Of a stretch of 31,585 nucleotides of DNA, positions 11,542-29,212 are shown piece by piece. Numbering within the stretch: position 1 is the stretch's first letter; each line of letters starts with the position of its first letter. Source of the DNA: a virus; IMG/VR virus record IMGVR_UViG_3300029787_000166, positions 1 to 31,585 of that record; one strand, 5' to 3'. The position numbers were made by a program, and so were the translations under genes. A model generated the notes under the pieces. The model had not been told where the DNA came from, did no database searches, and was given only the letters and a program-made list of their open reading frames with translations.

Positions 11542-11747
11542 TGGGATACAACTACGAATACAAACTTAGAAAAGGCGAGTCAGTTGAGAGAGCCGTCAAG
11601 AAGTTTTCTAGAAAGTGCAAGAAGCTAGGCATCATCCAAGATGTTAGGGACAGACGGCATTACCAAAAACCTTCGGTCAAAAAAAGATTAGCCAAAAAAA
11701 GGGCTATCGCTCGTCATCGCAAAGAGATGGCGAAAAGACGCCGTTAA
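11541..11747 (+). CDS. rpsU: Ribosomal protein bS21 homologue, phage-encoded
   Basis: A 68-residue basic protein with the bS21 pattern: RKGESVERAVKKFSRKCKKLGII, then a DVRDRRHYQKPSVKKR helix-turn segment and an Arg/Lys-rich helical tail. In bacteria bS21 sits on the 30S platform beside the anti-SD end of 16S rRNA and takes part in initiation; it exchanges readily between ribosomes. Phage copies are thought to replace host bS21 and steer initiation to phage mRNAs. It is translationally coupled to the upstream gene (TAATG) and is directly followed by a putative late promoter. Full length, with no damage. The family call is firm; the effect on the host ribosome is inferred. Confidence 0.9.
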   Translation: MGYNYEYKLRKGESVERAVKKFSRKCKKLGIIQDVRDRRHYQKPSVKKRLAKKRAIARHRKEMAKRRR

Positions 11748-11761
11748 ACTATTTAATACGA
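11747..11761 (+). promoter_or_regulatory. Putative phage late promoter (AACTATTTA motif) for the fibre genes
   Basis: AACTATTTAATACGA starts on the last base of the bS21 stop codon, 20 bases before the next ATG. The AACTATTTA core followed by nTRyGA recurs upstream of 22725, 23990 and 29240, and with one change upstream of 19485. It does not match the T4 late consensus TATAAATA, so a divergent phage sigma-like factor is inferred. Confidence 0.5.
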
Positions 11762-11775
11762 TAGGAGATTAGAAT

Positions 11776-12195
11776 ATGGGTTATCAAAACATTTACACCG
11801 CCGGTCTAAATAATGTTGGATCATACGAGGTATCCGGTGTACCTTATGCAACTGGTAGTATTGATGCTAGTGGTGGCGTGTTGATTAACTTTCCCACTGT
11901 TACTCGATGGGTTGTTGTTCATTATTCTGCTTCAGACTCCGGAAATCCTGATTTGAAACTCGGCTTCAGTGAAAACGGTGTTGGTTCAGTAGAAGAAAAT
12001 TACTTTTTCACAATGAAGCCAAACACTACAAGTCCACGTTTTGAACTCAAGCTAACTGAATTGTCTCTGTTTGGGGGTGATGCCGGTGAACAAGGCGTCT
12101 CCGTAATGGCGGGGCTCACATATATACCTACATTAAGGCTCGATTCAATTGGCCCCTCAGGATCTAACTGGTCTGGTTCTATCGGAGTAGGTTAA
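11776..12195 (+). CDS. Beta-rich virion protein, unassigned (fibre cluster, first gene)
   Basis: A 139-residue protein with SD AGGAG at 11763-11767. It is rich in Gly, Ser, Thr and aromatic beta-strand patterns (GVLINFPTVTRWVVVHYSAS; LKLGFSENGVGSVEENYFF; RFELKLTELSLFGG) and lacks helices or membrane spans. The composition suggests a compact beta-sandwich structural protein, perhaps a capsid decoration or fibre-base protein. It is the first gene after a putative late promoter and overlaps the next fibre-like gene by one base (TAATG), so it is probably made together with that protein. No specific family recognised. Confidence 0.65.
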   Translation: MGYQNIYTAGLNNVGSYEVSGVPYATGSIDASGGVLINFPTVTRWVVVHYSASDSGNPDLKLGFSENGVGSVEENYFFTMKPNTTSPRFELKLTELSLFGGDAGEQGVSVMAGLTYIPTLRLDSIGPSGSNWSGSIGVG

Positions 12196-12824
12196 TGGGT
12201 GAATTTGGATGGGCCTATATTACTTGCGACGATCAAGTCGGTAACGCCGTTGGTCCAACAGGATCTCTTCAGTTCCACCATGCTGGACAAGAGATTACTG
12301 GTTCCGAGTTTTTGGTTTTTAAAACGAGCTCAGCACCTTTTTCACTTGATCTAACTGGTACATTAAACGTTAGTGGAACCATTAATGCCGATATTATGAA
12401 TATCGCGGTTACTAACAAAAATGTTATCAACCTTTCGGCTTCAGGTGATACAAAGTTTGGAAATACTGTAAACGATAGTCACCAATTCACAGGAAGTGTG
12501 TTCATAACAGGCGGTGTAAGCTTTAATTATTATAAAGTTACATCAGCAACATACGCAATTACACCAACAGATTATATATTGGGTATATCTGGATCTGGTT
12601 ATATAAGCATAACACTGCCCACATTTAGTTCCTTTAAAGGAAGATTCATAACTATTAAAGATGAATTTGACTTTTCTGGCTCTGGGCGGCCTGCTATTCA
12701 CCCAATCGGTCTAACAGCATCCAGTGGCTTGTTAGATGGTAATGGTACTTATGAAATATCTAATGGTGACTTTGCTGCTGTTAACTTATACTCTGATGGT
12801 ACTACTGGGTGGTTTGTAGTCTAA
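12195..12824 (+). CDS. Fibre-like virion protein, paralogue of the next gene
   Basis: A 209-residue Gly/Ser/Thr-rich protein. The middle has a strand-repeat pattern typical of trimeric phage fibres (LDLTGTLNVSGTINADIMN, then INLSASGDTKFGN ... DSHQFTGSV). The C-terminal domain of about 80 residues (YILGISGSGYISITLP ... FITIKDEF ... GLLDGNGTYEI ... AVNLYSDG ... WFVV) recurs in the genes at 12843 and 16194 and, more remotely, 13918. That domain resembles small beta-structured tips of phage fibres. SD GGAG lies seven bases before the ATG. The gene probably arose by duplication with the 12843 gene, with which it aligns over the last 140 or so residues. Confidence 0.72.
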   Translation: MGEFGWAYITCDDQVGNAVGPTGSLQFHHAGQEITGSEFLVFKTSSAPFSLDLTGTLNVSGTINADIMNIAVTNKNVINLSASGDTKFGNTVNDSHQFTGSVFITGGVSFNYYKVTSATYAITPTDYILGISGSGYISITLPTFSSFKGRFITIKDEFDFSGSGRPAIHPIGLTASSGLLDGNGTYEISNGDFAAVNLYSDGTTGWFVV

Positions 12825-12842
12825 ATATTATAGGAGAAAATA

Positions 12843-13805
12843 ATGTCCTATAACCTATTGTCCGCCAGTGTTACAATGCCGACCACATATAACGGCGACA
12901 CTGCTATTAATCTAAGCAATGTCAGCATGAGTGGTAATATCGCCGGTGACGGCACCGAATTAATAAATGTAAACCACACTTTGCAATCTAACACAGGCCC
13001 CGGAAGAATACCATTCTTTGACACGTCAGAAGCAGTAGGTCCTCTTGGTAACCAGTTTAATTCAAGGGGAGACCGAAACTTTACATTTGATCGATCCAAT
13101 GGTATTATGACCATTAATGGGACCGCCTCGTTAAGCGCAATAACTCTTAATAGTGCCTCCAGCGAACTTGCGGTAACAACAAAATATCTTGCATTGAACG
13201 CTAATGATGAAGTTGTTCTAACTTCTTCGGTAACAACCGGAGGACCAGTCAGTTCGCTTCAGTTTAGTACGGGACCAACAGCCCTGTCTGGTTCTCCGAC
13301 AATGACGTTTGATAGCACCAATAACCTGTTAGCCCTAACTGGATCAATAGAAGTATCGGGGTCTATAACAGCACATGAATTAAACATTGTTGTAATCAAT
13401 GAGAGAAAAATAAATCTTGATATCTCTGGATCAACTATATTCGGTGATTCCTTGGATGATACTCACCAGTACACTGGGAGTATTTTAGTCAATGGAACAG
13501 TTATAAGAAGCCGCGTATCTGTAACTTCTAGCCCTTTTTCGATAGGTGCGACAAATTATTTTGTTGGAGTTCGGTCGGATACAATCGGTGCTACCAGTAC
13601 GATTAATCTCCCTGTGGCCAATACTTTACAGAATGGGCAATCTCTGATTATAAAAGACGAGGGCGGTTCTGCTCAAAGCCATAATATTAAAATAACAGCC
13701 TCCGCAGCAGATTTAATTGACGGACAGTCCGAAATTTACATAGAATCGCCTTTTGGATCAGTAAACATATACACTGATGGATCTAGTAAATATTTCATCT
13801 ACTAG
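12843..13805 (+). CDS. Fibre-like virion protein, paralogue of the preceding gene
   Basis: A 320-residue protein with SD AGGAG just upstream. The N-terminal part (MSYNLLSASVTMPTTYNGDT; SMSGNIAGDGTELINV) resembles the fibre at 16980 (MSYN start, GDG or GNG-x-x-L-x-x-V segments). The last 140 residues parallel the preceding gene: SGSITAHELNIVVINERKIN, GSTIFGDSLDDTHQYTGS, then the shared tip domain (STINLP, SLIIKDEGGSA, LIDGQSEIYI, VNIYTDGSSKYFIY). Repeated short beta-strands and no Cys fit a trimeric fibre. A structured element and terminator-like run follow, ending this part of the cluster. Confidence 0.72.
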   Translation: MSYNLLSASVTMPTTYNGDTAINLSNVSMSGNIAGDGTELINVNHTLQSNTGPGRIPFFDTSEAVGPLGNQFNSRGDRNFTFDRSNGIMTINGTASLSAITLNSASSELAVTTKYLALNANDEVVLTSSVTTGGPVSSLQFSTGPTALSGSPTMTFDSTNNLLALTGSIEVSGSITAHELNIVVINERKINLDISGSTIFGDSLDDTHQYTGSILVNGTVIRSRVSVTSSPFSIGATNYFVGVRSDTIGATSTINLPVANTLQNGQSLIIKDEGGSAQSHNIKITASAADLIDGQSEIYIESPFGSVNIYTDGSSKYFIY

Positions 13806-13841
13806 CGCGTCGATTGCGCGTTGGTTCCTCTAATTATAATA

Positions 13842-13901
13842 GCGCCAATGATGCCTCCGCGATCCTTGTGTTCGTCGGCATCATAGCCATGGCGCGTTTT
13901 T
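13842..13901 (+). terminator. Two-part stem-loop followed by a T-run, terminator or 5' leader structure
   Basis: GCGCCA (13842-13847) pairs with TGGCGC (13890-13895), and the adjoining ATGATGCC (13848-13855) pairs perfectly with GGCATCAT (13877-13884). There are 14 pairs with a five-base bulge (AGCCA) on the 3' side and a 21-base loop, followed by GTTTTT. It lies between two fibre genes and only 16 bases before the next ATG, so it may end transcription from upstream or fold in the leader of the abundant fibre gene. A perfect TATAAT (13835-13840) lies just upstream, but without a good -35. Confidence 0.55.
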
Positions 13902-13917
13902 ATGGAGGATATAAATT

Positions 13918-16089
13918 ATGGCTTATAAATTTCAAGTTGGTGTAGCCCAACTCTCGGGTAACTTAACCCAAGAGGGCGCACTAACTGCTGAGGGACTTGC
14001 GTCTCTCGACGGTGGTATTGACGTTAATGGCGCAAACTTCACCGTTTCAACCGCTGGTGCTCTTAGTGCTGCCGGTCTTGCTAACCTCGATGGTGGTATC
14101 GAAGTTGATAATGGTGGTAATAAATTCACTGTTTCTACTGCTGGTGCTGTTGTTGCGGAAGGCTCCGTTTCTGGTGCTGCGGGTACATTTGATACTCTTG
14201 CTGGTACTTCTTTAGCTCTTCAAAATGGTGGTATTTCTGCTGCTGGTGCAATTGCTGGTGCAACTACAATTGCTGCAAGTGGTCTTGCTAACCTTGACGG
14301 TGGTATCGAAGTTGATAATGGTGGTAATAAATTCACTGTTTCAACTGCTGGTGCTGTTGTTGCTGAAAGTTCTATATCTGGTGCTGCTGGTACATTTGAT
14401 ACTCTTGCTGGTACTTCTTTAGCTCTTCAAAATGGTGGTATTTCTGCTGCTGGTGCAATTGCTGGTGCATCTACAATTACCGCAACTGGTTTAGTTTCAT
14501 CTTCTGCTGCTCTTAATGGTCTTTCATTAGACATTAATAGTGCTGCAAGTGTTAACTCTGCTGGTGCTGCAAGCTTTGCTAGCGCAAATCTTAACGCTGG
14601 TGGTATTTCTAATGCTGGTGCTATTGTTGGTGCAACCACAATTTCTGGTTCTTCTACCATTTCTGGTCTTGAATTAGACATTGAAAAGAGCGCGAACATT
14701 GCTCAAGCGGCTGATATTGGAGGCAAACTTACTGTTGTAGGTGTTTCCGATCTCGATGGTGGTATTGATGTTAATGGTTCAAACTTCACTGTTGCTGCTA
14801 CTGGTTTCCTTGCTTCACCATCTGGTTCTATCACTGATCTCTTTGTAGGTGATGATGCTCAATTTGCTGATACTGTTACTATCGAAGGTGTTTTACGTGC
14901 AGATGCTGCTGCTACTTTTGCTACTACAGTTGCTGTAAACGGTCTTTCTAACCTTGACGGTGGTATCGAAGTTGACAATGGTGGTAACAAATTCACTGTT
15001 TCTACTGCTGGTGCTGTTGTTGCGGAAGGCTCCGTTTCTGGTGCTGCTGGTACATTTGATACTCTTGCTGGTACTTCTTTAGCTCTTCAAAATGGTGGTA
15101 TTTCTGCTGCTGGTGCAATTGCTGGTGCATCTACAATTACCGCAACTGGTTTGGTTTCATCTTCTGCTAAAGTTGAAGCTCTAGAATTAGAGATCAACAG
15201 TGGACTAACTATTAATTCTGGTGGCGCTATCGCTGGTGCATCTACAATTGCTGCAAGTGGTCTTGCTAACCTTGATGGTGGTATTGAGATTGATAACAGT
15301 GGTAACAAATTTACTGTTTCTACTGCTGGTGTTGTTGTTGCTGCCGGTCTTGCTAACCTCGATGGTGGTATTGATGTTAATGGTTCAAACTTCACTGTTG
15401 CTACTAATGGTCACCTTGTTTCACCATCTGGTTCTATCGCTGATCTTTACGTAAGTGATGATGCTCACTTTGCTGATACAGTTCTTATTCAAGGTGCTCT
15501 CAGTCAAACTGGTAATGCTACCTTCACTGGTGCTGTATCTTCATCTCAAGGTCTACACATTACTGCTGGTCTTGGTCTTATCGTTGGTGCTTCTGGTGAA
15601 CTTCAGGTAACTCCAAACGGTAACGTTTCTACCTCTGGTGATGTAACTGGTTCTGCTTTTGACTTCGCTAAAGGTGCTGATTTCAAAATCGCTCAAAGCC
15701 TCTTACCAGATGTTGCTTCTTCACTTGATCTTGGTAGTTCTGCACTTCCTTATCAAGCAGTTTACGCTGATACCTTCATTGGTAACATCGCATTTGATAC
15801 TCAAACCGTAACTGACTTCGGTCCAGTTGCTGCGGCTTCTGATATCGTTTACGTTAACATGGCCTCAACCGGTCTTACTCTTGAGCTCCCAACTGGTTCT
15901 GCCGGTAAGGTACTCAGAATTAAGGCGTCAGGCGAAAGACCATTCGAAATTTCTGGTGCTGCTGGTACTGGTGATTCCGTATTTGATCAACCTGCTGATT
16001 CTATTCTTGTTAAGATAGAGCAACTTGGTGCTGCTATGACTTGTGTATACTCTGGTTCTGCTGGTTCCGGTAAGTGGCACATCATCTAA
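13918..16089 (+). CDS. Large repetitive fibre or surface protein with capsid-like codon bias
   Basis: A 723-residue Gly/Ala/Ser/Thr-rich protein with strong SD GGAGG. It is built of repeats: a 69-residue unit (LANLDGGIEVDN ... KFTVSTAGAVVAE ... GTFDTLAGTSLALQNGG) at residues 53-121, 122-190 and 342-410, with partial copies later, plus a second 46-residue unit (LDGGIDVNGSNFTVA ... SPSGSI.DL). Such regular strands fit a long trimeric beta-fibre. The last 100 residues resemble, remotely, the tip domain of neighbouring fibres. Codons are strongly biased to GGT, GCT, TCT, ACT and CTT, as in the major capsid gene and unlike the flanking fibre genes, which suggests very high expression. It has its own terminator. 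It could be a head-decorating fibre or a tail fibre; the sequence does not decide. Confidence 0.78.
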   Translation: MAYKFQVGVAQLSGNLTQEGALTAEGLASLDGGIDVNGANFTVSTAGALSAAGLANLDGGIEVDNGGNKFTVSTAGAVVAEGSVSGAAGTFDTLAGTSLALQNGGISAAGAIAGATTIAASGLANLDGGIEVDNGGNKFTVSTAGAVVAESSISGAAGTFDTLAGTSLALQNGGISAAGAIAGASTITATGLVSSSAALNGLSLDINSAASVNSAGAASFASANLNAGGISNAGAIVGATTISGSSTISGLELDIEKSANIAQAADIGGKLTVVGVSDLDGGIDVNGSNFTVAATGFLASPSGSITDLFVGDDAQFADTVTIEGVLRADAAATFATTVAVNGLSNLDGGIEVDNGGNKFTVSTAGAVVAEGSVSGAAGTFDTLAGTSLALQNGGISAAGAIAGASTITATGLVSSSAKVEALELEINSGLTINSGGAIAGASTIAASGLANLDGGIEIDNSGNKFTVSTAGVVVAAGLANLDGGIDVNGSNFTVATNGHLVSPSGSIADLYVSDDAHFADTVLIQGALSQTGNATFTGAVSSSQGLHITAGLGLIVGASGELQVTPNGNVSTSGDVTGSAFDFAKGADFKIAQSLLPDVASSLDLGSSALPYQAVYADTFIGNIAFDTQTVTDFGPVAAASDIVYVNMASTGLTLELPTGSAGKVLRIKASGERPFEISGAAGTGDSVFDQPADSILVKIEQLGAAMTCVYSGSAGSGKWHII
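14074..14487 (+). repeat. Tandem 207-bp coding repeat, two copies (type A)
   Basis: Copies at 14074-14280 and 14281-14487 are in frame and nearly identical at the DNA level, each encoding 69 residues beginning GLANLDGGIEVDN. The near identity, including third positions, indicates recent duplication or ongoing recombination between copies. Confidence 0.9.
14752..14890 (+). repeat. 139-bp coding repeat, first copy (type B)
   Basis: This encodes LDGGIDVNGSNFTVA, then SPSGSITDLFVGDDAQFADTV. An equal-length copy without gaps is at 15358-15496. It begins with the same LDGG motif as the type A unit. Confidence 0.82.
14941..15147 (+). repeat. Third copy of the 207-bp type A repeat
   Basis: It starts GGTCTTTCTAACC and matches the two tandem copies at 14074-14487 over its whole length, in the same frame. 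It is separated from them by a unique section and a type B unit. A shorter partial type A copy begins at 15259. Confidence 0.88.
15358..15496 (+). repeat. 139-bp coding repeat, second copy (type B)
   Basis: This matches the unit at 14752-14890 without length change. It encodes LDGGIDVNGSNFTVAT, then SPSGSIADLYVSDDAHFADTV. Confidence 0.82.
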
Positions 16090-16123
16090 TCTTCGGATTG
16101 GATTATTGTCCTATACTTTATGT

Positions 16124-16153
16124 GGAGGTTGCCTTCGGGCAACCTCCCTTTTT
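16124..16153 (+). terminator. Strong intrinsic terminator after the repetitive fibre gene
   Basis: GGAGGTTGCC (16124-16133) and GGCAACCTCC (16138-16147) form a perfect ten-pair stem closed by a TTCG tetraloop, followed by C and five T residues. This is a textbook Rho-independent terminator, 35 bases after the stop codon. Confidence 0.92.
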
Positions 16154-16193
16154 ATTATCAAAAGCCTAATTATGGATAGCACGAGGTAATGAA

Positions 16194-16961
16194 ATGGCTT
16201 TTAATTTTTCAATTGGTGGACAAATCATTGGTGACCTGTCTGGATCTGATGATTCGGATAGAAACACAGTCATAGATTTTGAAGAAGATTACATTGGGTT
16301 TGTAACCAGCGGATCAACCATATTAAGCATATCAGGCAGCGATGTATATTTAGCAAATGGTTCAAACCTATATTTAGACGGAGGATCAAACCTTTATTTT
16401 GATTCAAGCCCAACCCCCGCTTCGGTTTTTATAAGCGAGGTTGGTGATGGTTCTAATTCTTTAAACATTGATGCAAATAATGTTTTATATCTTACGGCTG
16501 ACGAAAGCGTAAGGGTAATGAATAACAGTTCAACAAAAGTTATATTTGACTTTAATAATGATGTTGCTGAAGTTGAGATGCCTATTTCAAGTTCTACGAC
16601 AATTGAAGGCGGAACTCTTGTGAACAACGGAGGACGAAAAGCAAATGTTGCGTCTGTTACCTCCACTCCATTCTCGGTTTCCACGAGTCATCATATGCTT
16701 GCAGTTAACACAGATTCTGCAAAAACTTTAAATTTACCACAAGTATCCAACTCAGACGCAGGTGTTGTCTTAATAATAATGGACGCCTTTGGAAGCTCTG
16801 AGACTGCTGGTGCAAACAACAACAACATAACAATCAACGCGCACTCTGGTCAATATGTCGGAGCAAATTCGTCTTATACCATTAATACCATGGGCGGTGT
16901 TGTATCATTGGTCGCCTTAGACAGTAATGGCTGGGGCATATTTAACAAGATAACTAGCTAG
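16194..16961 (+). CDS. Fibre-like virion protein with shared tip domain
   Basis: A 255-residue protein; GAGG lies seven bases before the ATG. It starts MAFNFSIGGQIIGDLSGSDD and continues with short strand repeats (SISGSDVYLANGSNLYLDGG, then SNLYFDS), a NSLNIDANNVLYLTAD segment and a hinge. The C-terminal 90 residues (STPFSVSTSHHMLAVN ... KTLNLPQV ... VVLIIMDAFGSS ... NITINAHSG ... SYTINTMGGVVSLVALDSNGWGIF) are a version of the tip domain shared with the genes at 12195 and 12843. It sits after the strong terminator at 16124, and no AACTATTTA motif is seen before it, so its promoter is not clear. Confidence 0.7.
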   Translation: MAFNFSIGGQIIGDLSGSDDSDRNTVIDFEEDYIGFVTSGSTILSISGSDVYLANGSNLYLDGGSNLYFDSSPTPASVFISEVGDGSNSLNIDANNVLYLTADESVRVMNNSSTKVIFDFNNDVAEVEMPISSSTTIEGGTLVNNGGRKANVASVTSTPFSVSTSHHMLAVNTDSAKTLNLPQVSNSDAGVVLIIMDAFGSSETAGANNNNITINAHSGQYVGANSSYTINTMGGVVSLVALDSNGWGIFNKITS

Positions 16962-16979
16962 TTACTACGAGGATAAAAA

Positions 16980-19415
16980 ATGTCATATAATATTTTTAGC
17001 AAGAGGGCTGCTTTTCAGGGGACCACAAAAACCGCTGATGGTGATATAGTATCTGGTACTATTGAGTATATGGTTGATAACCATTCAAACCAGACTATTG
17101 ATGGACAAAAGACCTTTACTGATCTATCGGCTAGTAATATTTCAATTGGTGAGAGGATTTCTCATACAGGGGATAGTGATACAAGACTACAGTTCGGCAC
17201 AGATAATATAGCTTTTATGGCCGACGGTGGAACTCAAATATTTACAATTTATGGTAACCTAAATCCTGATCGAGTACAAGTTAATACTGGAAACCTTGTT
17301 ATTGCTACTGGTAATATAGGAATTGGGGTCACCGTACCAACTTTTGAACTTGAGGTCGATGGTAATGTATCTGGTTCCGGAACATTCCACAATGTCGGTG
17401 CTGCAACCTTTGGTAACAACTTGAGCGTCACTGGGACAATATCTGGTAACGGATCTGGCCTAACAAATGTTGGTTTGGCTGGAAATCTATTGGCTGAAAG
17501 CATAATCGGTTCTGTTAGCGGTTCTCAAATCAGCGCATCAAACGGTCTCTCTACAAGCGGCAACAATTTGGTTGTGCAAGTAAGTGGAACGGCATCTGGT
17601 CTTGTTTCTGAGACAAATGGTATTAAAATAGATTTAACTGGACTCGGAACGGTAGCGTACTCCGATAACGATCACATACTCATAAGTTCTTCTGCCGGTA
17701 ACAAGAAGATGCAACTATCAACCCTCGAATCAGGGTTCGACAGTCTGGCGGCAGGGCAAGTAACAACAGGACGATTTGATACTGCCCGACTTCCCACAAC
17801 TATCAGCGGGATTAGTTTCTTAACATCCTCCGTTATTTCTGCCTCGACCTTTCATGGAAACGGAGAGAACCTAACTGGTGTTAGCGCAACGGCATCACCC
17901 GGCGGGTCTAATACGCAGGTTCAGTTTAATGATGATGGCGACCTCACAGGTGATGCACAATTGTTCTTCCTGACCGGTTCAAACACGTTGGCGACGACTG
18001 CGTTATCAGCATCAGGAGATCTATCAGGATCGTCGCTTCGTATTTTGAACTCTATTTTTACCGGAGGCAATACTTTCTTGGACAACAACGGAAATGTATT
18101 TGCATCAAGCATATCTGGTTCTGGAACAATTCATGTGGTTGGAAGCGCATCATTTGGTAATGATGTATCAATCACGGGTGCTTTCTATGGTGACGGTAGA
18201 CAACTAACAGGGCTACCAATAGCCAACGCTGCTGCTAATGCTGTTGTAACAGTTAACAATGCAACAACTAAAACAGTAGATTCTAATTCAAACTTCACAT
18301 ACGATGGTTCGGATGCCGTCGTTACAAGTGGTGATGTAAAGGCAACAAACCTTTCGGCCTCCTCTGACCTTAAAGCGGGTGGTAATCTTGTAATTGGTGT
18401 CGCCGCTACAACTCTATCAGCAACCGAACTTGGTGTGCTCGATGGTGTAACAGCAGGAACAGCCGCCGCAAGTAAAGCGATGGTTCTTGATTCAAATGCA
18501 GACATAACAGGATTTAGAAAATTAACTTCTGCTACTAATGGCGCTTCTCTTGTGGAGGTCACCTCTTCCGCAGGAAAAATCTCCCTATCAGGTGAGGCCG
18601 TGGCTATCAGAAATGTAGCCAATACATCAGTTTTCAATGTTGCTATTACTGATGGAGATGTAACTAGTGCTGGTGCTATTAAAGCGGCTTCTCTTTCTGC
18701 CTCCGCTGATATTCAAGCCGGAGGACACATAACTGGTTCTGGTAATATTGTTTTGTCCAATAATAATAACAATAGAATACAGTGGGACCTTTCAGGTGGT
18801 TCTGATGAAGGGCCTTATATACATGGTGTATCTTCATCGTCAGGTGTAGGAAGTACTAAGAAGCTTGAAATACATGGTGATAATGATCTAAACTTACTGG
18901 CTGACTCGATCATAAGACTTAAAGTTCCCGACAATGCTAATGCCGTGACTATTGAGTCTGCGATGGCCACAGTATCTGTACCGATTTCTTCATCTTCTCA
19001 GATTTCAGGATCAGGACTTTATTTGCAAAGTCATGGTACTACGGTGATTGCATCAGGAGGAAACACTTTCCTTGACTCGGATGGTGGTATCACCGTCGGT
19101 GCAATAACAATGATGGCCGACTCGGATGCTACTCTTAATTTCAACAATAACCAAATCTCCGGCTCTGGTCATATTTCCGGTTCAGCATTTTATTTTGAAG
19201 ATTCAATAAACCTTAGTGGAAATCCAATCATAACCGGAGACGGAAACGCTTCTTTTGGACAATTGACCTGTTTTGTTGACGCCAAGGGCAATACCAATCT
19301 TCCAACCGACAATAGTAGGGCAACATTTTATGTTGATGAATCAGCAAATAAATTCTTTGTTTATGTAAAATATTCTGGTGGAGCAGTGAAATCTGGCTCT
19401 ATCGACCTCACATAA
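16980..19415 (+). CDS. Long fibre protein (811 residues), candidate receptor-binding fibre
   Basis: A Gly/Ser/Thr/Asn-rich protein made of many short beta-strand repeats. The N-terminus (MSYNIFSKRAAFQGTTKTAD; DNHSNQTIDGQKTF) has the IDGQKTF segment often found in fibre shafts. It is followed by LEVDGNVSGSGTFHNVGAATFG, GNGSGLTNV and a second related block (GSGTIHVVGSASFGNDVSITG, GDGRQLTGL), then ATTLSATELGVLDGVTAGTA. Such modules occur in fibres of marine phages. The last 60 residues differ from the tip domain of its neighbours and may form a distinct receptor-binding tip. SD GAGGA is present. The codon use is mixed, unlike the fibre at 13918, so it is probably less abundant. Confidence 0.76.
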   Translation: MSYNIFSKRAAFQGTTKTADGDIVSGTIEYMVDNHSNQTIDGQKTFTDLSASNISIGERISHTGDSDTRLQFGTDNIAFMADGGTQIFTIYGNLNPDRVQVNTGNLVIATGNIGIGVTVPTFELEVDGNVSGSGTFHNVGAATFGNNLSVTGTISGNGSGLTNVGLAGNLLAESIIGSVSGSQISASNGLSTSGNNLVVQVSGTASGLVSETNGIKIDLTGLGTVAYSDNDHILISSSAGNKKMQLSTLESGFDSLAAGQVTTGRFDTARLPTTISGISFLTSSVISASTFHGNGENLTGVSATASPGGSNTQVQFNDDGDLTGDAQLFFLTGSNTLATTALSASGDLSGSSLRILNSIFTGGNTFLDNNGNVFASSISGSGTIHVVGSASFGNDVSITGAFYGDGRQLTGLPIANAAANAVVTVNNATTKTVDSNSNFTYDGSDAVVTSGDVKATNLSASSDLKAGGNLVIGVAATTLSATELGVLDGVTAGTAAASKAMVLDSNADITGFRKLTSATNGASLVEVTSSAGKISLSGEAVAIRNVANTSVFNVAITDGDVTSAGAIKAASLSASADIQAGGHITGSGNIVLSNNNNNRIQWDLSGGSDEGPYIHGVSSSSGVGSTKKLEIHGDNDLNLLADSIIRLKVPDNANAVTIESAMATVSVPISSSSQISGSGLYLQSHGTTVIASGGNTFLDSDGGITVGAITMMADSDATLNFNNNQISGSGHISGSAFYFEDSINLSGNPIITGDGNASFGQLTCFVDAKGNTNLPTDNSRATFYVDESANKFFVYVKYSGGAVKSGSIDLT

Positions 19416-19444
19416 AGCACAATCTTCCTTTTCTCATTAAAAAC

Positions 19445-19470
19445 ACTATTTACTTGTGATAAACTATTTC
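19445..19470 (+). promoter_or_regulatory. Putative tandem late promoter motifs for scaffold and capsid genes
   Basis: ACTATTTA (19445-19452, followed by CTTGTGAT) and AACTATTTC (19462-19470) lie 17 bases apart in the 70-base gap before the scaffold gene. They match the intergenic AACTATTTA motif with one change each. Doubling would fit the need for high scaffold and capsid output. Confidence 0.42.
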
Positions 19471-19484
19471 TAGGAGAAACCTTA

Positions 19485-20663: not shown

Positions 20664-20687
20664 TCATTTAATGGAGGTATTATAAAA

Positions 20688-22520: not shown

Positions 22521-22548
22521 TCATTAGGTTTATAGCCTTTGCTACTAG

Positions 22549-22577
22549 CCCCTCGATCTCCGGATCGGGGGGTTTTT
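22549..22577 (+). terminator. Strong intrinsic terminator after the major capsid gene
   Basis: CCCCTCGATC (22549-22558) pairs with GATCGGGGGG (22563-22572) around a TCCG loop: ten pairs, one of them a U-G wobble. TTTTT follows directly. It is 28 bases past the capsid stop codon. Confidence 0.92.
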
Positions 22578-22588
22578 AGTTTGGAGAA

Positions 22589-22604
22589 AACTATTTATTG
22601 TGAC
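22589..22604 (+). promoter_or_regulatory. Putative late promoter (AACTATTTA motif) before the capsid accessory gene
   Basis: An exact AACTATTTA (22589-22597) followed by TTGTGAC lies 12 bases after the capsid terminator. It would start a transcript with a leader of about 120 bases before the ATG at 22725. Confidence 0.48.
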
Positions 22605-22611
22605 TTGTTTT

Positions 22612-22720
22612 ATTCTCCTCTGGGCGAGGCCACTGCCCTTAGAAAGATTGTGTTCCGAGGTGGCTGGGATACAATCATTGAATAAATTCAGGTTATTGCA
22701 ATAATTTTATAATAGGAGAA
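22612..22720 (+). promoter_or_regulatory. Structured 5' leader RNA with complementary hairpin loops and an anti-SD tract
   Basis: The leader holds an 11-pair hairpin (GATTGTGTTCC 22646-22656 with GGGATACAATC 22666-22676, two wobbles, loop GAGGTGGCT). Before it is a four-pair hairpin, GGGC (22622-22625) with GCCC (22635-22638), loop GAGGCCACT. The two loops share GCCAC/GTGGC complementarity, allowing a kissing interaction. TTCTCCT (22613-22619) is complementary to the gene's own SD AGGAGAA (22714-22720). Two inverted repeats follow: TGAAT-AA-ATTCA (22679-22690) and TTATTGCAATAA (22693-22704). Control of translation of the 22725 gene is inferred. A frame without an ATG (22581-22685) also crosses the region. 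Confidence 0.45.
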
Positions 22721-22724
22721 AATC

Positions 22725-23333
22725 ATGGCAAAAAGAATAAGTAGAAGAAGACTCTACGCAATCGACAAAAAGGGTATTAGCTCTGGGTCATTTGTGCCCG
22801 GTGGTGGTATTTCTGGTTCAATTGTGCAACAGTCTATTTATAGAGATGGTTTTGAAGTCATAACCGAACTCGCAATTGATTTCGCTTACGGCACTACTGG
22901 TTCTCTAGCGGCACCCGGCAACAAGAACTTGGTTGTTGGTATGACCAATAGTGGATCTGCTGTAATCGGCCAGATCAACGAGCAACGAAATGGTGTTGTT
23001 ACAGCTGCTGAATGTATCTGTGTAGAATCACCAAACTCTGGTACTAGCAACCCAGTAGACCTTGACTTTGTTTTCGCTGATGAATACTTTACCGCGTTCT
23101 CTGGTACTTTAACAAACGCAACCGCTCTTGTAGCAGGTGGCGGTGATTGGGTTAAAGGCAAGAATGTTACCGGTGACGTTGACAACAACGGTGGAGAAAA
23201 CAAGTACATCTACATAACCACAGGCATGGGTGGAAACACCGGTGAAGGTGGTGCTGATTACACGGCTGGTAAGTTTATCTTGCGTCTCTTCGGATATGCA
23301 GTTGTTGCTGATAAAGGCACAAAACAACTCTAA
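22725..23333 (+). CDS. Putative capsid accessory or decoration protein
   Basis: A 202-residue protein with SD AGGAGAA. A basic N-terminus (MAKRISRRRLYAIDKKG) leads to Gly/Ser-rich beta segments (GSFVPGGGISGSIVQQSIY; KNLVVGMTNSGSAVIGQINE), ECICVESPNSG, an acidic FVFADEYF strand, and a Gly/Asn-rich KYIYITTGMGGNTGEGG region before a final strand (GKFILRLFGYAVVAD). It looks like a compact beta-rich virion protein and has its own promoter, structured leader and terminator next to the capsid gene, which suggests separate dosage control. A decoration or head-fibre-base protein is the best guess, from context only. Confidence 0.68.
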   Translation: MAKRISRRRLYAIDKKGISSGSFVPGGGISGSIVQQSIYRDGFEVITELAIDFAYGTTGSLAAPGNKNLVVGMTNSGSAVIGQINEQRNGVVTAAECICVESPNSGTSNPVDLDFVFADEYFTAFSGTLTNATALVAGGGDWVKGKNVTGDVDNNGGENKYIYITTGMGGNTGEGGADYTAGKFILRLFGYAVVADKGTKQL

Positions 23334-23357
23334 TCTATAAAACATTAATTATGATGT

Positions 23358-23388
23358 CAAAAGTCCCTTTTTGGGACTTTTGTTTTTT
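23358..23388 (+). terminator. Intrinsic terminator after the capsid accessory gene
   Basis: CAAAAGTCCC (23358-23367) and GGGACTTTTG (23373-23382) form a perfect ten-pair stem with a TTTTT loop, followed by TTTTTT (23383-23388). It lies 24 bases after the stop codon. Confidence 0.92.
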
Positions 23389-23419
23389 GGCCACTAATTA
23401 CAAATAAATGGAGATTTTT

Positions 23420-23587
23420 ATGAGTAAAAGTGGATATAGAGCCAAGAAAAGAGCAGCCCGTCAAGCCGCCGCAGAAGCAGGAAGTGCTCCCGCTCCCGCG
23501 CCAAAAAAAGCACCTGCTCCAAAGAAAGCAGCACCCAAAAAGGTTGTTCGCAAAAAGGCCCCCAAGAAAAGCGCTGAATCAAAATAG
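23420..23587 (+). CDS. Small histone-H1-like Lys/Ala/Pro-rich protein
   Basis: A 55-residue protein; the ATG at 23420 has TGGAGA upstream. After MSKSGYRAKKRAARQAAAEA come repeated AP-KK units (APAPKKAPAPKKAAPKK) and a basic end. There are no acidic patches apart from a few Glu residues. This composition is that of eukaryotic H1 tails and bacterial H1-like proteins, which bind and condense DNA non-specifically. It might be packaged with DNA, neutralise it, or bind host nucleic acid. No motif beyond composition supports a function. It is transcribed just after a strong terminator without an AACTATTTA motif before it, and six bases separate it from a second basic protein. Confidence 0.68.
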   Translation: MSKSGYRAKKRAARQAAAEAGSAPAPAPKKAPAPKKAAPKKVVRKKAPKKSAESK

Positions 23588-23593
23588 TGTTCT

Positions 23594-23941
23594 ATGGCTA
23601 GAAAATCTAAAAGAATAAGGTTATTAGCACAGTTAAAAAAACTAAATGAACAAACGCAACCCGTGATGCTTGTTGATGAGGTTAAACCTGTGCTTGAAAC
23701 CTCCAAACAAGAACCTGTTGTTGCACAATTGATTGAGGAACCAAAGATAGAAAAGGTGCCTGAACCAGTTGTTGAAGCCGTTGTAGAGGCACCAAAACCC
23801 AAACCAAAAAGAACTAGGGCCAAATCTACAACACCCTCAAAGCCCAAAGCCAGCGCAACGCCAAAAAAACCCCGAGCACGAAAAACAACAACGAGAAAGC
23901 CACGGGCAAAAACGGCTAAAAAAACAAAAACCGCAGAATAG
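23594..23941 (+). CDS. Second H1-like basic protein with acidic linker
   Basis: A 115-residue protein that starts six bases after the previous stop without a clear SD, so coupling is likely. Three parts are visible: a basic start (MARKSKRIRLLAQLKKLNEQ), a Val/Glu/Pro-rich acidic linker of about 40 residues, and a strongly basic tail from about residue 68 with PKPKRTRAK, TPKKPRARKTTTRKPRAK and AKKTK. The SPxK/TPxK-like and RKP units resemble H1-type tails and AT-hook-like Pro-Arg patches. Together with the preceding gene it forms a pair of nucleic-acid-condensing candidates between capsid and neck genes. The function is unknown; the linker might bind capsid or scaffold. Confidence 0.68.
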   Translation: MARKSKRIRLLAQLKKLNEQTQPVMLVDEVKPVLETSKQEPVVAQLIEEPKIEKVPEPVVEAVVEAPKPKPKRTRAKSTTPSKPKASATPKKPRARKTTTRKPRAKTAKKTKTAE

Positions 23942-23959
23942 ACGCTTTCATACGATAAA

Positions 23960-23975
23960 AACTATTTAGTATGAT
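23960..23975 (+). promoter_or_regulatory. Putative late promoter (AACTATTTA motif) before the neck genes
   Basis: An exact AACTATTTA (23960-23968) followed by GTATGAT, almost the same as the copy at 11747, lies 21 bases before the ATG of the neck gene and next to its SD CGGAGGG. Confidence 0.5.
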
Positions 23976-23989
23976 CGGAGGGTACATGC

Positions 23990-25234
23990 ATGTCATTTCC
24001 AACTTTAACACCAGCGTCTCAGACATCAGCAATCGTTCTTCCAGTAACAGGTACACACAGTGATGTATTATCTTCATTACCCTTTAGTATTTATACATCA
24101 AGTGCTTTTATATCTGGTGCTGTGGATCAGGTTGCTTATACTTACCGTAAGCTTGGTGGGGATGTACTTGATCTTGAAATCAAGGCCGAAAATGTCTACG
24201 CCAACTACGAGGAAGCAGTTCTTGAGTATTCTTACCTCGTTAATTTACATCAAGCAAAAAATATTCTTGGTTCTTCCCTTGGAAACCCAACAGCATCGTT
24301 CAACCAAGACGGATCAATAACAGAGGGCCAATCTGGGTCTATCGAATTAAGATATCCTAAATTCAAATTTGATTACGCAGTAAAGATTGGACAACAGTTT
24401 TCAAACGAAGCAGGGTTCGGAGGTACTACTCCTATATACTCAGCGTCTTTCTATACAACCGCTAGTAAACAAGATTACGATTTGCAATCGATTATTGCCT
24501 CAAACGCTGCGGCAGGTGGTGTTCCTTATGAAGATATAGACACTAACAAGAGGGTTCGAATCCGAGAGGTATTCTATGTCTCTCCTCGACAGATGTGGAG
24601 ATTCTATGGATACTATGGCGGTCTTAATGTTGTGGGCAATCTCCAGACATATGGGCAGTATGCTGATGACTCTAGTTTTCAGATTATACCGGTGTGGCAA
24701 AACAAACTTCAGGCCATGGCCTTTGAAGATCATTTATACACCAGAACTTCTCACTATTCGTATGAAATTATAAACAACAACCTTCGTTTGTATCCAGACC
24801 CCGATGCACAATCACCGAAGCAATTTTGGTTCAGATTCTCAATAAATGAGAACAGTTGGGATGACGAATTTGATGATGGACAATTGGGTGTAAACAATAT
24901 GAATACACTTCCGTTTGAGAACATCCCATATAAAAGCATCAATTCTATTGGTAAACAATGGATTCGCAGATTTGCACTTGCGCTTAGCAAAGAAACACTC
25001 GGACAGGTTCGCTCTAAATTTGGTAATAATGTTCCAATCCCCGGTGATACTGTAACACTTAATGGCTCCGACCTCATGTCTCAGGCCAAAGAGGAACAAA
25101 ACGCGCTGCGTACAGAATTGAAAGAACAATTGGAAGCAATGACTTACGACAAACTTATCGAGACAGATAAAAACATTGTTAACAATACAAACGAAATACA
25201 GAGAAACATACCCACAGGCATTTTTGTAGGATAG
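23990..25234 (+). CDS. Neck or head-completion protein (T4 gp13-like, tentative)
   Basis: A 414-residue protein; the ATG at 23990 is seven bases after CGGAGGG (another ATG at 23986 is out of frame). Features are LDLEIKAENVYANYEEAVLEY, a helix of the kind found early in gp13-type neck proteins; VRIREVFYVSPRQMWRFYGYY; FEDHLYTRTSHYSYEIINN with LRLYP; and WIRRFALALSKETLGQVRSK, then VPIPGDTVTLNGSDL and a helical end. This layout recurs in large neck proteins of marine T4-like phages. The following genes are gp14-like and gp15-like, which matches the T4 order 13-14-15 and supports a role joining portal and tail after packaging. It is longer than T4 gp13 (309). The assignment rests mostly on order. 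Confidence 0.66.
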   Translation: MSFPTLTPASQTSAIVLPVTGTHSDVLSSLPFSIYTSSAFISGAVDQVAYTYRKLGGDVLDLEIKAENVYANYEEAVLEYSYLVNLHQAKNILGSSLGNPTASFNQDGSITEGQSGSIELRYPKFKFDYAVKIGQQFSNEAGFGGTTPIYSASFYTTASKQDYDLQSIIASNAAAGGVPYEDIDTNKRVRIREVFYVSPRQMWRFYGYYGGLNVVGNLQTYGQYADDSSFQIIPVWQNKLQAMAFEDHLYTRTSHYSYEIINNNLRLYPDPDAQSPKQFWFRFSINENSWDDEFDDGQLGVNNMNTLPFENIPYKSINSIGKQWIRRFALALSKETLGQVRSKFGNNVPIPGDTVTLNGSDLMSQAKEEQNALRTELKEQLEAMTYDKLIETDKNIVNNTNEIQRNIPTGIFVG

Positions 25235-25237
25235 AAA

Positions 25238-27844
25238 ATGAAAATCAAAGTAAAGCTAAAAGAGAACAAGCAATTAGTTCAAGAAATCACCGAAGAAGAA
25301 TACTCTTTTGTCGAAGAGGCATTGGAGATCCCTATTGAGGAAATGCCTTATTCAAACATCTTTGGCGATAAATACCGAATCATTCGTGAGTTTGGAACTC
25401 TCAGCGATGGAAATCCTTTTGGAAAAATGATAAAGAAACTTGGTGAGTTCGGATGGAACCTCGCAGAGCACGAGGGCGATAAAGCCATTGAACTATACAA
25501 AGAATACACATTGGTAAAACCCAATCCTAAATACGCTGAAGACCCAGTAGGTGGACAATACATTAGAAATCCTCAGTATGTAAAGATGACTCTCCAAAAG
25601 CTCATTCAGAAAATGAATGCCTTTGCTACGAAGGGTGTAGTCTCAATGTTTGCAAAGAGGCAGAATGTCACCAAAAGAAACTATGAAGACCAAAATGCTT
25701 TAAGAGATGAACTTCAAGCCAGATCCCCAGATGGGACAATTAAAGGCGAACTGACTGATGAATACAAAGAAGGATTAGCAGCTCTTGATAAGAAATACGG
25801 ACTTCCAGCAAGAGCATTGGTCGCCAAAATGAGAACAGGGATTAATCTTTACTTTGGCCGCACTTCTGGGATGACTTATGAAGTACTAGCTATGAAGAAT
25901 CGCTCACGAGTCGAGGACCTATTAGAAGACCTTGAAGAGTATTCCAAATTGATAAGCGACGAAAGGGAGATGTATCAAATACAATCTAACTTTGACAGAC
26001 TCTTTGAGCCGACTTATGTAATCTACTCAAGACATCCAGTTGATGTGTTCCGTATGTCTGACTTCGTTCAGGTTACCTCGTGTCACTCTCCACCCTCTAG
26101 AAAGGGAGACAAACAAGGCTTTGACGAGTATAACATTTGTGCTCTTGCCGAGGCTTATGCGAACGGAATGATCGCCTATGCTGTTCCAGCAAAATCATTT
26201 GAGGACGTCGATCTTGAGCCCACACAAGAGTCTCTTGATGAAATCGGTGAGGATGAATTGTTCTGGGATCAGGAAAGAAGCGAAGGCCAAGTTGAGCCTG
26301 TTGCCCGTGTGAGGATTAGAAATGTTGCTTTTACAGACCGCGAGACAGGACAAGTAACACGAGTTGCTGTCCCAGACAAAAAGACTTATGGCAAACCTCC
26401 CGCTAACTTTAGCACTTATGTTCGCAACTTTGTTGCTGCCGCACAAAGAGAACAGATCAACCAGATCGCGAACTCTGATGCTGTTGATAGGTTTGACGAT
26501 GGTGACATTAACATTCCTCTTGAAAACTTTGAAAGGTTTGGTGGAAGTTATGAAGATGGTGGAGCGGCTGTTAGAGACAACATGCCTCTCATGTTTGCAA
26601 GTGCTCTTAACATATCAGCAGCAAAGATAACAATGCCCGGCAATCTTAATTATGATCACACACTTCAGAGGGAGTTAAAAGATAAATTCCAAACAGGCTT
26701 GAGCCAAGAAGATCTAGACCAAATGGTTAATAGACAGGCCAACTCTTACGGCGGTCCCGGTCGATACAAAATAGACGCATCTGCATACATGAGTGACGAC
26801 TATCATCCAATCATGGACTCGATTGATGTTACAGCCTATGCTGTGCTTCCAATGACGGATGACGAACTTAGAGAAAACTACACCGACATCGCAGAATTGT
26901 TTGAGGGGCATAGTGATTCTTTTGCCGTTTGGTTTAATGAAGATCAAATTCCTCCTGATAATGTAATCCCAATGTATTCTGGCCAAGGTCGCGGAGACAA
27001 GCCCGTCCTTGAACTTAATTTTCAAAATCTCCAATTCAACATGTCTGAGGCTGGTATGGATCTATACATTGAGGACGGGCACAGCGTAAGCGAAATACTA
27101 CAAACTGTTGGCGACTCTTCTAGAAACGGCGGCTTTGGTTTTGACCTTTATACAGATCCTTATGTTGAGGATGGCTTTGATGCTATTGCTAAGGGTATTT
27201 TAGATATATCTCAGTATGGTACAGGTGAAGAGTTTTATCTCACCCGTATATTAAACAAACATCTGGAGCCCGACAGCTCTGTTGGAGATTGGCAACCCGT
27301 AAATGTTGAGATTGAGTATCATGACTACACCAATGTGGAATACTATAAAGAGGCAGAGTTTGAAACCTTCATAGAAATAGACACGGAGTGGATGCTGGAA
27401 GCAGGATTAACACCAGAACAAGTGGGTATTTTTATCCTTGCTATAAACCAGCATGATATAGTTAAGAGTGAGCTTGTAAGACTTATCTACATGCATCTCA
27501 TTATGGACAGATCTGCCTTGAGCACATACGACTTCAGGTCCGGATTGACCGTTGGAAATGAGGATACATACACGACACTACAAGATGTTGTTGAGGATGC
27601 AGGAAACATTGCGGCTTCATTCGAGCTTAAACTTAAAGTAGATGCTGAAGATGATGTTTATTCAAAGAAAACAGCCGCCGCACTTGAGATTTGGCTGACG
27701 GAATACGACAGCAATAGTTCAGCCGATGATGCCTTAAGCAGCGGTCGAGGACAGATCTTTATCAAAAACGTTCTTGAGCAGTTCCCAAAACAACAGACAA
27801 ACGAAAGCAAGAAACGAATGAAAGTTCGCATGATACGAGGGTAA
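25238..27844 (+). CDS. Large protein of unknown function (868 residues) inside the neck gene cluster
   Basis: It starts three bases after the previous stop, with AGGATAG as SD. The N-terminus MKIKVKLKENKQLVQEITEEE is a charged amphipathic strand. The most motif-like part is VIYSRHPVDVFRMSDF (261-276), followed by SCHSPPS (281-287) and an ICALAEAYANGMIAYAV helix (300-316); the His, Arg, Asp and Cys residues look like a functional site. The rest is acidic and mixed alpha/beta, with a basic end (KKRMKVRMIRG). I recognise the RHP-x-DV-x-RMSD ... SCHS pattern from other marine phage proteins of unknown role. It lies where T4 has only gp13 and gp14, so it may be a virion protein, an internal protein injected with DNA, or an enzyme. 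No known family can be assigned. Confidence 0.78.
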   Translation: MKIKVKLKENKQLVQEITEEEYSFVEEALEIPIEEMPYSNIFGDKYRIIREFGTLSDGNPFGKMIKKLGEFGWNLAEHEGDKAIELYKEYTLVKPNPKYAEDPVGGQYIRNPQYVKMTLQKLIQKMNAFATKGVVSMFAKRQNVTKRNYEDQNALRDELQARSPDGTIKGELTDEYKEGLAALDKKYGLPARALVAKMRTGINLYFGRTSGMTYEVLAMKNRSRVEDLLEDLEEYSKLISDEREMYQIQSNFDRLFEPTYVIYSRHPVDVFRMSDFVQVTSCHSPPSRKGDKQGFDEYNICALAEAYANGMIAYAVPAKSFEDVDLEPTQESLDEIGEDELFWDQERSEGQVEPVARVRIRNVAFTDRETGQVTRVAVPDKKTYGKPPANFSTYVRNFVAAAQREQINQIANSDAVDRFDDGDINIPLENFERFGGSYEDGGAAVRDNMPLMFASALNISAAKITMPGNLNYDHTLQRELKDKFQTGLSQEDLDQMVNRQANSYGGPGRYKIDASAYMSDDYHPIMDSIDVTAYAVLPMTDDELRENYTDIAELFEGHSDSFAVWFNEDQIPPDNVIPMYSGQGRGDKPVLELNFQNLQFNMSEAGMDLYIEDGHSVSEILQTVGDSSRNGGFGFDLYTDPYVEDGFDAIAKGILDISQYGTGEEFYLTRILNKHLEPDSSVGDWQPVNVEIEYHDYTNVEYYKEAEFETFIEIDTEWMLEAGLTPEQVGIFILAINQHDIVKSELVRLIYMHLIMDRSALSTYDFRSGLTVGNEDTYTTLQDVVEDAGNIAASFELKLKVDAEDDVYSKKTAAALEIWLTEYDSNSSADDALSSGRGQIFIKNVLEQFPKQQTNESKKRMKVRMIRG

Positions 27845-27848
27845 ATGA

Positions 27849-28340
27849 ATGGCGGACAATAAATGGTCAAAACCAGCGTCTCCACCACCTCCTCTCTTTC
27901 TTGGAGAGAAGGAGCGAAACCTCGTCAAACAAGTCAACGACGAGATCATCGAGAGAGTTATTGGCCAACAGGTCCTCTATTTCCCAATCGACATTGACCG
28001 AACCAACTTCCACCCAGTATACGGCGAGGCCATAGAAAAAAGTTTCTTACACCCAGTAAGAGTATATGCCCTCGTAGAATACGGAGGAGTTGAAACCTCT
28101 TATCTTGATAATATTGGTGTTGACAAGCATGAAACAATTACAATAAATTTTCACAAAAGAAGATTAACAGAGGATCAAGATCTTTTTGTCCGCGAAGGAG
28201 ACTTCGTGAGATATGGAACCGGATTCTATGAGATAGTTAAATTGGTAGAACCTAAACAACTATTTGGCCAAATAGATCATAGATTTGAAATAACAGCAAT
28301 GTGTATTGATGCAAGAGAGGGATTGTTCGATGGCAGTTGA
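27849..28340 (+). CDS. Neck protein (T4 gp14-like)
   Basis: A 163-residue protein; of two close ATGs, 27849 has GAGGG at the right distance and the long frame. After a Pro-rich start (PASPPPPLFLGEKERN) it has VNDEIIERVIGQQVLYFPID, then YGEAIEKSF, a VRVYALVEYGG strand, VDKHETITINFHKRRL and EGDFVRYGTGFYEIVKLVEP with QLFGQIDHRFEITA. This follows the T4 gp14 order of VPREF-, FGED-, DEVTLSINPN- and EINWVEP-like segments, but without the C-terminal extension of T4 gp14 (256). gp14 forms the neck that receives the tail after packaging. The next gene overlaps by 11 bases. Confidence 0.76.
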   Translation: MADNKWSKPASPPPPLFLGEKERNLVKQVNDEIIERVIGQQVLYFPIDIDRTNFHPVYGEAIEKSFLHPVRVYALVEYGGVETSYLDNIGVDKHETITINFHKRRLTEDQDLFVREGDFVRYGTGFYEIVKLVEPKQLFGQIDHRFEITAMCIDAREGLFDGS

Positions 28341-29163
28341 AACTGACGGATCAGCCATACAAGGCTCATCATTAGAAAACATTGATGTTGGTTTTTATGA
28401 ATATGTTGATGAGGTATTAAACCTGCATGCAACATCAAACGGCGGGTTTAAAAAAGTTCCCGTAACATGGCTTTCTTCCGAAAGAGCGTTTCAGATTAAG
28501 AACAACGTTACACTGAGAGACTCAGGTGGCCATTTAAAGCTACCACTAATAACAGTTAATCGAGGATCAATAATTAAAGATCCATCTTTCAAGGGATCTT
28601 ATCAAGCAAATAACCAACTACCTTCCACCGGTCCCAGAGGATATAAAAATAATTCTTATCTTGCCGGTAGAAAATTAAAACAAGTTAAGTCATCAGAGTT
28701 TATGGAAAATGATCTAAACGAAGATACACTTGGTGTAAACAACAATGGTTATACAACCAGAAAAAAACTTGTTTATGAAGAAGTCTACTTACCTATACCG
28801 GTTTATGTTTCTATCTCATATTCTATTAATATTCGAACTGAGTATCAGCAACAAATGAATCAATTACTTGTTCCCTTTATTGCTAGAACGGGACAAATAA
28901 ATTCATTTATATTTGAAAAAAATGGTTACCGCTATGAAGCGTTCATACAACAAGACTTTGGCCAAGAAAATAATGCAAACAATTTCGGAGAAGATGAAAG
29001 ATTCTTTGTTACCAAGATTGATGTAAAGGTTTTGGGATATGTTCATGGCGAAGGAGTCAATAATTCTAAGCCAATAGTTGTAACTAAAGAGAATATTGTA
29101 GAGGTTAAGTTGGTTGGCGAAAGATTGGTCAAAAATATTAGCGACGACAAGAATTTTGTTTGA
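28330..29163 (+). CDS. Tail terminator/sheath-completion protein (T4 gp15-like)
   Basis: The ATG at 28330 (GAGGGA eight bases upstream) gives 277 residues; the frame extends to 28306 but lacks an SD there. The pattern parallels T4 gp15 (272): FYEYVDEVLNLHA, GGFKKVPVTWLSSERAFQIK, LKLPLITVNRGSIIKDPSF, and YLPIPVYVSISYSINIRTEY followed by a helix (QQQMNQLLVPFI). A FIFEKNGYRYEAFIQQDF segment and a final strand domain with FFVTKIDVKVLGYVHG come next. gp15 caps the finished tail tube and sheath and makes the contact with the neck. The order neck gp14, terminator gp15, sheath gp18 fits. A gp3-like tube terminator is the alternative. Confidence 0.74.
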   Translation: MAVETDGSAIQGSSLENIDVGFYEYVDEVLNLHATSNGGFKKVPVTWLSSERAFQIKNNVTLRDSGGHLKLPLITVNRGSIIKDPSFKGSYQANNQLPSTGPRGYKNNSYLAGRKLKQVKSSEFMENDLNEDTLGVNNNGYTTRKKLVYEEVYLPIPVYVSISYSINIRTEYQQQMNQLLVPFIARTGQINSFIFEKNGYRYEAFIQQDFGQENNANNFGEDERFFVTKIDVKVLGYVHGEGVNNSKPIVVTKENIVEVKLVGERLVKNISDDKNFV

Positions 29164-29196
29164 TTATAAAGTCGTTGGGTTATTGACCATTTAAAT

Positions 29197-29212
29197 AACT
29201 ATTTACTACGAA
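29197..29212 (+). promoter_or_regulatory. Putative late promoter (AACTATTTA motif) before the sheath gene
   Basis: An exact AACTATTTA (29197-29205) followed by CTACGAA lies in the 76-base gap between the tail-terminator and sheath genes, 34 bases before the sheath ATG. The related CTAGTTACTACGA occurs at 16958-16970, before the long fibre gene. Confidence 0.5.

Follow-up and report, generated by a model that had tools for sequence, protein, structure and literature searches.

A probable bipartite late promoter of marine T4-like myoviruses and its candidate gp55-like sigma factor

Which signal precedes the virion operons of a T4-like phage whose intergenic gaps repeat the word AACTATTTA, and what reads it? 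The question arises from the window, that is, bases 1–31,585 of the 34,959-base IMG/VR contig IMGVR_UViG_3300029787_000166. All genes in the window lie on the + strand; they code for head and tail proteins of T4 type, its products including a gp46-like ATPase, terminase, Portal_T4, a gp21-type protease, ribosomal protein S21, a gp23-type capsid protein and a head-tail adaptor; judged by gene order in T4-like relatives, gene 19485 is probably the scaffold and gene 29240 the tail sheath. Among cultured phages, its capsid and portal proteins come closest to those of the Flavobacterium immuto phages and Microcystis phage Mel-JY01, with less than 50% identity; our comparison set was made up of 80 IMG/VR loci with relatives of the window capsid protein (873 kb). 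We consider it likely that the repeated word belongs to a bipartite late promoter class that is used across a large marine clade of T4-like myoviruses and read by a gp55-like sigma. An earlier, sequence-only reading of the window had already taken the motif for a late promoter unlike T4 TATAAATA, one that a divergent phage sigma factor may read; our results support the promoter and probably also the sigma, with a revised consensus.

AACTATTTA occurs seven times in the window, always on the + strand and at each of the positions first listed (2163, 8603, 10293, 11747, 22589, 23960 and 29197). The expectation is 0.35 copies on both strands together, in line with the earlier estimate of less than one per strand, and none of 100 dinucleotide shuffles reached seven copies (mean 0.35). 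The gap copies lie in real gaps ahead of ATGs that bear a Shine-Dalgarno sequence. In the 80 relatives, the core word ACTATTTA has 250 copies on the late-gene strand and 5 on the opposite one, while the reversed word, used as a control, gave 28 and 29, and T4 TATAAATA showed no late-strand enrichment. A scan for enrichment upstream of genes, which the sequence-only reading had offered as its own refutation test, strongly favours the motif when run on these relatives: simple gene calls put the density of ACTATTTA at 3.81 per kb for gaps and 0.036 per kb for genes, a difference of about 100-fold. Without any seeding, the top gap-enriched 8-mer in the relatives was ACTATTTA itself (211 copies, 1.75 expected), and the natural variants ACTAATTA (56, 0.8 expected) and ACTACTTA (43, 0.4 expected) were enriched in the gaps as well. 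Near-complete records (127–195 kb) gave strand counts of 33:1, 22:0, 19:1, 24:2, 15:1, 26:1 and 22:1. We found no description of ACTATTTA/CTATTTA as a phage late promoter in a literature search whose coverage excluded most subscription journals.

Considering that ACTATTTA always lies on the coding strand, at a median of 41 nt before the ATG, it could also be an RNA-level signal, acting in processing or translation control of leader transcripts with no promoter involved. We find this scarcely credible, since copies often stand directly after terminators, where RNA must begin anew, since others lie more than 100 nt before the ATG or inside genes, and since the word is part of a two-part element of fixed spacing that aligns with known late promoters.

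The second part of this element emerged from the aligned sites, where it stands at a fixed distance upstream of ACTATTTA. A promoter model trained by expectation maximisation (EM) on 459 gaps of the relatives, with the window left out, and scored as a position weight matrix (PWM), gives the full signal as GGsnTTTT (-33 to -26), 12 bases, ACTA(T/a/c)TTA (-13 to -6) and tTwTrRA. The numbering sets ACTATTTA at -13 to -6, after the T4 late promoter; with it, position +1 is purine-rich (A 0.42, G 0.42), and transcription is predicted to start at about this purine. The tail first proposed for the consensus, -nTRyGA, is weak (it is really tTwTrRA, with the purine at +1), and the important second part is the upstream GGsnTTTT. 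A model site is present in about 79% of the relatives' gaps, and by direct count 108 of 248 sites have GG at -33, its peak position, and 145 of 248 have TTT at its own peak of -29, where the counts elsewhere are roughly 10 and 20. The upstream element is found also in three near-complete genomes left out of model training. In the three near-complete records that are syntenic with the window (terminase 66–70% and capsid 50–61% identical), a PWM scan placed model sites mainly in gaps.

These upstream runs of G and T might instead be mostly the tails of intrinsic terminators of the preceding operon, which would leave a -10-only late promoter of the T4 type, dependent on gp55 and the sliding clamp. 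A perfect terminator stem does adjoin the upstream element in 38 of 248 sites (1 in each control), the conserved sites 11748 and 10294 have no upstream element, and T4 late promoters themselves lack a -35 element (PMC2988020). At the same time, the exact register (TTT at -29/-28, GG at -33/-32) is kept in 140 sites without a good stem, and also inside the coding gene at 4110. As the element persists at stem-less sites, we rejected a mere terminator tail as its sole explanation; in a subset of sites, terminator tails seem to double as this element.

Conservation of the model site depends on the gene that follows. At a score of at least 15, a model site was found upstream of 27 of 27 orthologues of the scaffold gene 19485, 45 of 45 of the sheath gene 29240, 54 of 67 of the adaptor gene 23990 and 4 of 6 of gene 22725, while operon-internal genes are nearly devoid of it (capsid 20688, 1/73; 27849, 0/52; 28330, 1/50; 11119, 0/19) and 10.6% of random windows have one. 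Because the orthologous sequences are akin, each count cannot be taken as an independent event, but relatedness does not explain the contrast that neighbouring genes show within the same genomes. Ahead of gene 11776 (site 11748), ACTATTTA is kept in about 10 of 13 orthologues. Constraint is seen inside genes as well. At 10293/4, the residues E-L-F are coded GAA-CTA-TTT-A in 14 of 14 homologues (54–62% amino-acid identity), and since CTATTT encodes only 7.9% of Leu-Phe pairs, selection acts on the DNA there. A smaller sample for site 4110 has the Leu codon CTA in 6 of 6, at the same place in relatives (CTA usage, 11.3%). Three internal copies had been put forward as possible promoters; the one at 10293 gains from this DNA-level constraint, and those at 2163 and 8603 were rejected, as their homologues do not keep the DNA sequence. 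As far as sequence comparison goes, the signal is bipartite, strand-specific, gene-specific and conserved.

How does this signal compare with known ones? T4 late promoters have TATAAATA at -13 to -6, and Aeh1 late promoters have CTAAATA from -12 (PMC1524935). Like the T4 sites, the present ones have an 8-bp -10 element at -13 to -6, with T3, A4, T7 and A8 common to TATAAATA and ACTATTTA, and stand in coding orientation ahead of late virion operons, in a group where relatives with the same motif have a gp55-family sigma. Unlike them, they have ACTA(T/a/c)TTA as the -10, sharing only four of eight positions with TATAAATA (Aeh1 CTAAATA being intermediate), and in most sites GGsnTTTT at -33 to -26, which has no T4 counterpart. 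The Aeh1 class, defined in silico before late genes, likewise has C at -12 and TA at -11/-10; it differs in having AATA in place of TTTA/ATTA, and the available part of its description reports no upstream element (PMC1524935).

The upstream element also resembles that of T4 middle promoters, both being a G-C/G-TTT element near -30: the Mot box, GCTT at -30 to -27 (PMC1524935), is similar and lies in nearly the same place. A MotA-type activator bound to GCTTT/GGsnTTTT might thus bring the host's RNA polymerase, with sigma-70, to a degenerate -10. However, the -10 is not TATAAT-like, aligns with T4 and Aeh1 late sites and precedes virion genes, and Pfam gave no MotA match in 7 large relatives; the sigma-70 TATAAT -10 and MotA are features of T4 middle promoters of which neither is seen here. 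Separate TTGACA sites, in two genomes, also speak against such a middle mode, which we regard as quite improbable. These are sites with an enriched CTTGACA and a TATAAT-like partner in G049 and G030, situated mostly away from the virion block, in the non-structural region; no such class was seen in G033. With timing taken from gene content, the early-type promoters seem to form a class separate from the late-type ones in at least two genomes. In the immuto early region (L089–L090), the words TATATTTAGGTATC and CAATAATTAA are enriched in gaps and are probably part of an immuto early promoter or operator. Two-part late promoters are known for SPO1-type phage sigmas, of a phage lineage and with motif sequences unrelated to the present ones.

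Two-part promoters are also the norm in bacteria, and the sites could be ordinary promoters of the host's own alternative or primary sigma, read without any phage sigma. We think this very unlikely. The early-type sites in the two genomes fit the standard TTGACA/TATAAT, and relatives whose hosts differ (Flavobacterium, Microcystis) have related late motifs with a TATTTA core, suggesting that the signal follows the phage lineage.

A candidate phage sigma was found in the relatives. The T4 gp55 family (phrog_234) gave matches in relatives at E 3e-6, for one large relative, and at 5e-5, and matches immuto weakly. A profile made from the sigmas of this large relative and immuto matches Mel-JY01 and 80 IMG/VR loci, of which 42 are close to that of the large relative. 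The search for a gp55-like sigma factor that the sequence-only reading had suggested thus succeeded in near-complete relatives, while its gp33-like co-activator was not identified. The relatives' sigma is about 230–245 residues long (T4 gp55, 185), and its match to gp55 is collinear over the sigma-2 part (hhalign, residues 17–164), with weak Sigma70_r2 matches. Unlike T4 gp55, which ends in a short linker and a hydrophobic-acidic clamp-binding epitope, it has about 75 extra C-terminal residues. Their conserved block FNKKAIYLYLREITGLNTKQ and the preceding helix, modelled alone, are predicted with good confidence as four helices (pLDDT 88, pTM 0.73), and from its position and its helix-turn-helix-like sequence the block may be sigma-4-like or DNA-binding. 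For the whole sigma, several of the best Foldseek matches in the PDB are sigma factors, none of them significant, and in BFVD one significant nameless match is followed by weak ones, many of which are sigma factors; the sigma profile had no match among PDB sequences.

Just downstream of the sigma gene (L102–L143), and often overlapping its stop, lies a conserved open reading frame (ORF) of about 95 amino acids with an invariant core, ETLQRSNEQLVK, and a hydrophobic-acidic C-terminus. We rejected it as gp33, to which it has no similarity; it resembles the small terminase gp16 weakly.

If the sigma no longer ends in a clamp-binding tail, is the clamp itself present? In seven clade-A records, which are possibly incomplete, there was no match to gp45, of which remote homologues may be missed, and none to PolB; gp44 matches were weak and could be other ATPases, and DNA polymerase A was matched in all seven. 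In G030, G033, G039, G040, G041, G049 and G050, T4-like virion genes (checked in three) go with a family A polymerase, and no T4 clamp was recognised, which points to a T4 head and tail coupled to a replication module of non-T4 type. In this respect also the relatives seem to differ from the T4 late system, and a -10-only promoter served by the sliding clamp, disfavoured already by the stem-less sites, appears unlikely.

We propose that the bipartite promoter drives the virion operons of this marine T4-like myovirus clade and would be read by host RNA polymerase carrying the phage gp55-like sigma, whose sigma-2 part would read ACTATTTA as gp55 reads TATAAATA. Less surely, the extra C-terminal helical domain, standing where gp55 has its linker and clamp-binding tail, may be a second domain in contact with DNA or the flap. 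By touching the -33 to -26 element it may lessen or remove the need for a T4-type sliding clamp in promoter capture. A T4 review (PMC2988020) raises the question of why the late sigma comes as two proteins, gp55 and gp33, and has no fused form in nature. A late sigma in one piece, with its gp55-like sigma-2 core joined to a C-terminal reader of a true -35, in genomes from which the T4 clamp has been dropped, is a tentative answer to which we give a little under an even chance. While the promoter itself is well supported, we infer which domain reads the -35.

Several observations weigh against this proposal. The sigma profile has no match in the window's 35-kb contig, and a sigma in the window's own phage is presumed from relatives with a 50–61% identical capsid protein. 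The hhalign comparison of the sigma with the single T4 gp55 sequence is weak (E 0.057), and Foldseek found no significant match of the C-terminal domain to sigma-4 or any DNA-binding domain. Immuto combines the same sigma architecture with a CTATTTA(TA) motif and, in its few sites, no clear GG-TTTT element, and Mel-JY01, in which PolB and a clamp loader are present, has a ATATTTAT-type late motif, both of which speak against tying the domain closely to the element.

In the window, the strong sites are 22590, 19445, 23393, 4110, 29198 and 23961, with scores of 17–28, where the best site on the other strand scores 11.9 and block-shuffled windows have a mean top score of 11.3 (maximum 17.7). Two of them, 23393 (ACTAATTA) and 4110 (ACTACTTA), are new to this analysis. 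All predicted promoters given here are on the + strand. That of the scaffold (19485) and major capsid (20688) genes spans 19425–19452 (score 25.2), with TTCCTTTT at 19425–19432, ACTATTTA at 19445–19452 and a predicted start at about 19458. A tandem pair had been described here, and its copies are CACTATTTA at 19444 and AACTATTTC at 19462; the first is this strong site, and the second (19463–19470; score 9.9, no -35) is probably no independent promoter and was rejected as a second start. A looser relative at 16958 is not credible in this window (score 3.2, no -35, broken -10).

The predicted promoter ahead of gene 22725 (22570–22597, score 27.7) consists of GGGTTTTT at 22570–22577, which is also an intrinsic terminator tail, and ACTATTTA at 22590–22597. 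The next, at 23373–23400 (score 24.3), has a GGGACTTT-like element in a terminator and ACTAATTA at 23393–23400, and precedes a small basic ORF starting at 23420. Between 22725 and the adaptor gene, 23420–23941 encodes two small Lys/Ala/Pro-rich basic proteins of histone-H1-like composition, which have this strong promoter to themselves. The head-tail adaptor gene 23990 follows a predicted promoter at 23941–23968 (score 17.1; GACGCTTT at 23941–23948, ACTATTTA at 23961–23968), and the tail-sheath gene 29240 one at 29178–29205 (score 21.6; GGTTATTG at 29178–29185, ACTATTTA at 29198–29205). An N run at about 31586–31617 of the contig, just beyond the window end, marks an assembly gap within gene 29240.

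The terminase/portal operon probably has an intragenic promoter upstream of it, at 4090–4117 (score 23.2), with GGTGTTTT at 4090–4097 and ACTACTTA at 4110–4117. The gene at 3470–3904 is 81% identical in G030, yet non-syntenic there, unlike its neighbouring genes. Another predicted intragenic promoter, at 10294–10301 in gene 10082–10429, lies some 220 nt upstream of gene 10513, which encodes the head protease. The -10-only late promoter predicted ahead of gene 11776 (11748–11755) scores low (9.7) because its -35 region coincides with coding sequence, the end of the S21 gene. This ribosomal protein gene (11541–11747) sits within the head operon, its coding end carrying the 11748 promoter, and has the same place in Mel-JY01.

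The promoter signal fits the role of a T4 late promoter, yet departs from two features that define that class, the word TATAAATA and the lack of a -35. For diverse, mostly uncultured marine phages known mainly from metagenomes, it provides a usable promoter model, with which their operons may be read from sequence. A candidate fused late sigma together with its promoters, in genomes with no recognisable gp45, would make the link between the clamp, the split sigma and the absent -35 directly testable. If the proposal is true, late transcription in these phages would be recruited by promoter sequence and not tethered to replication through gp45.

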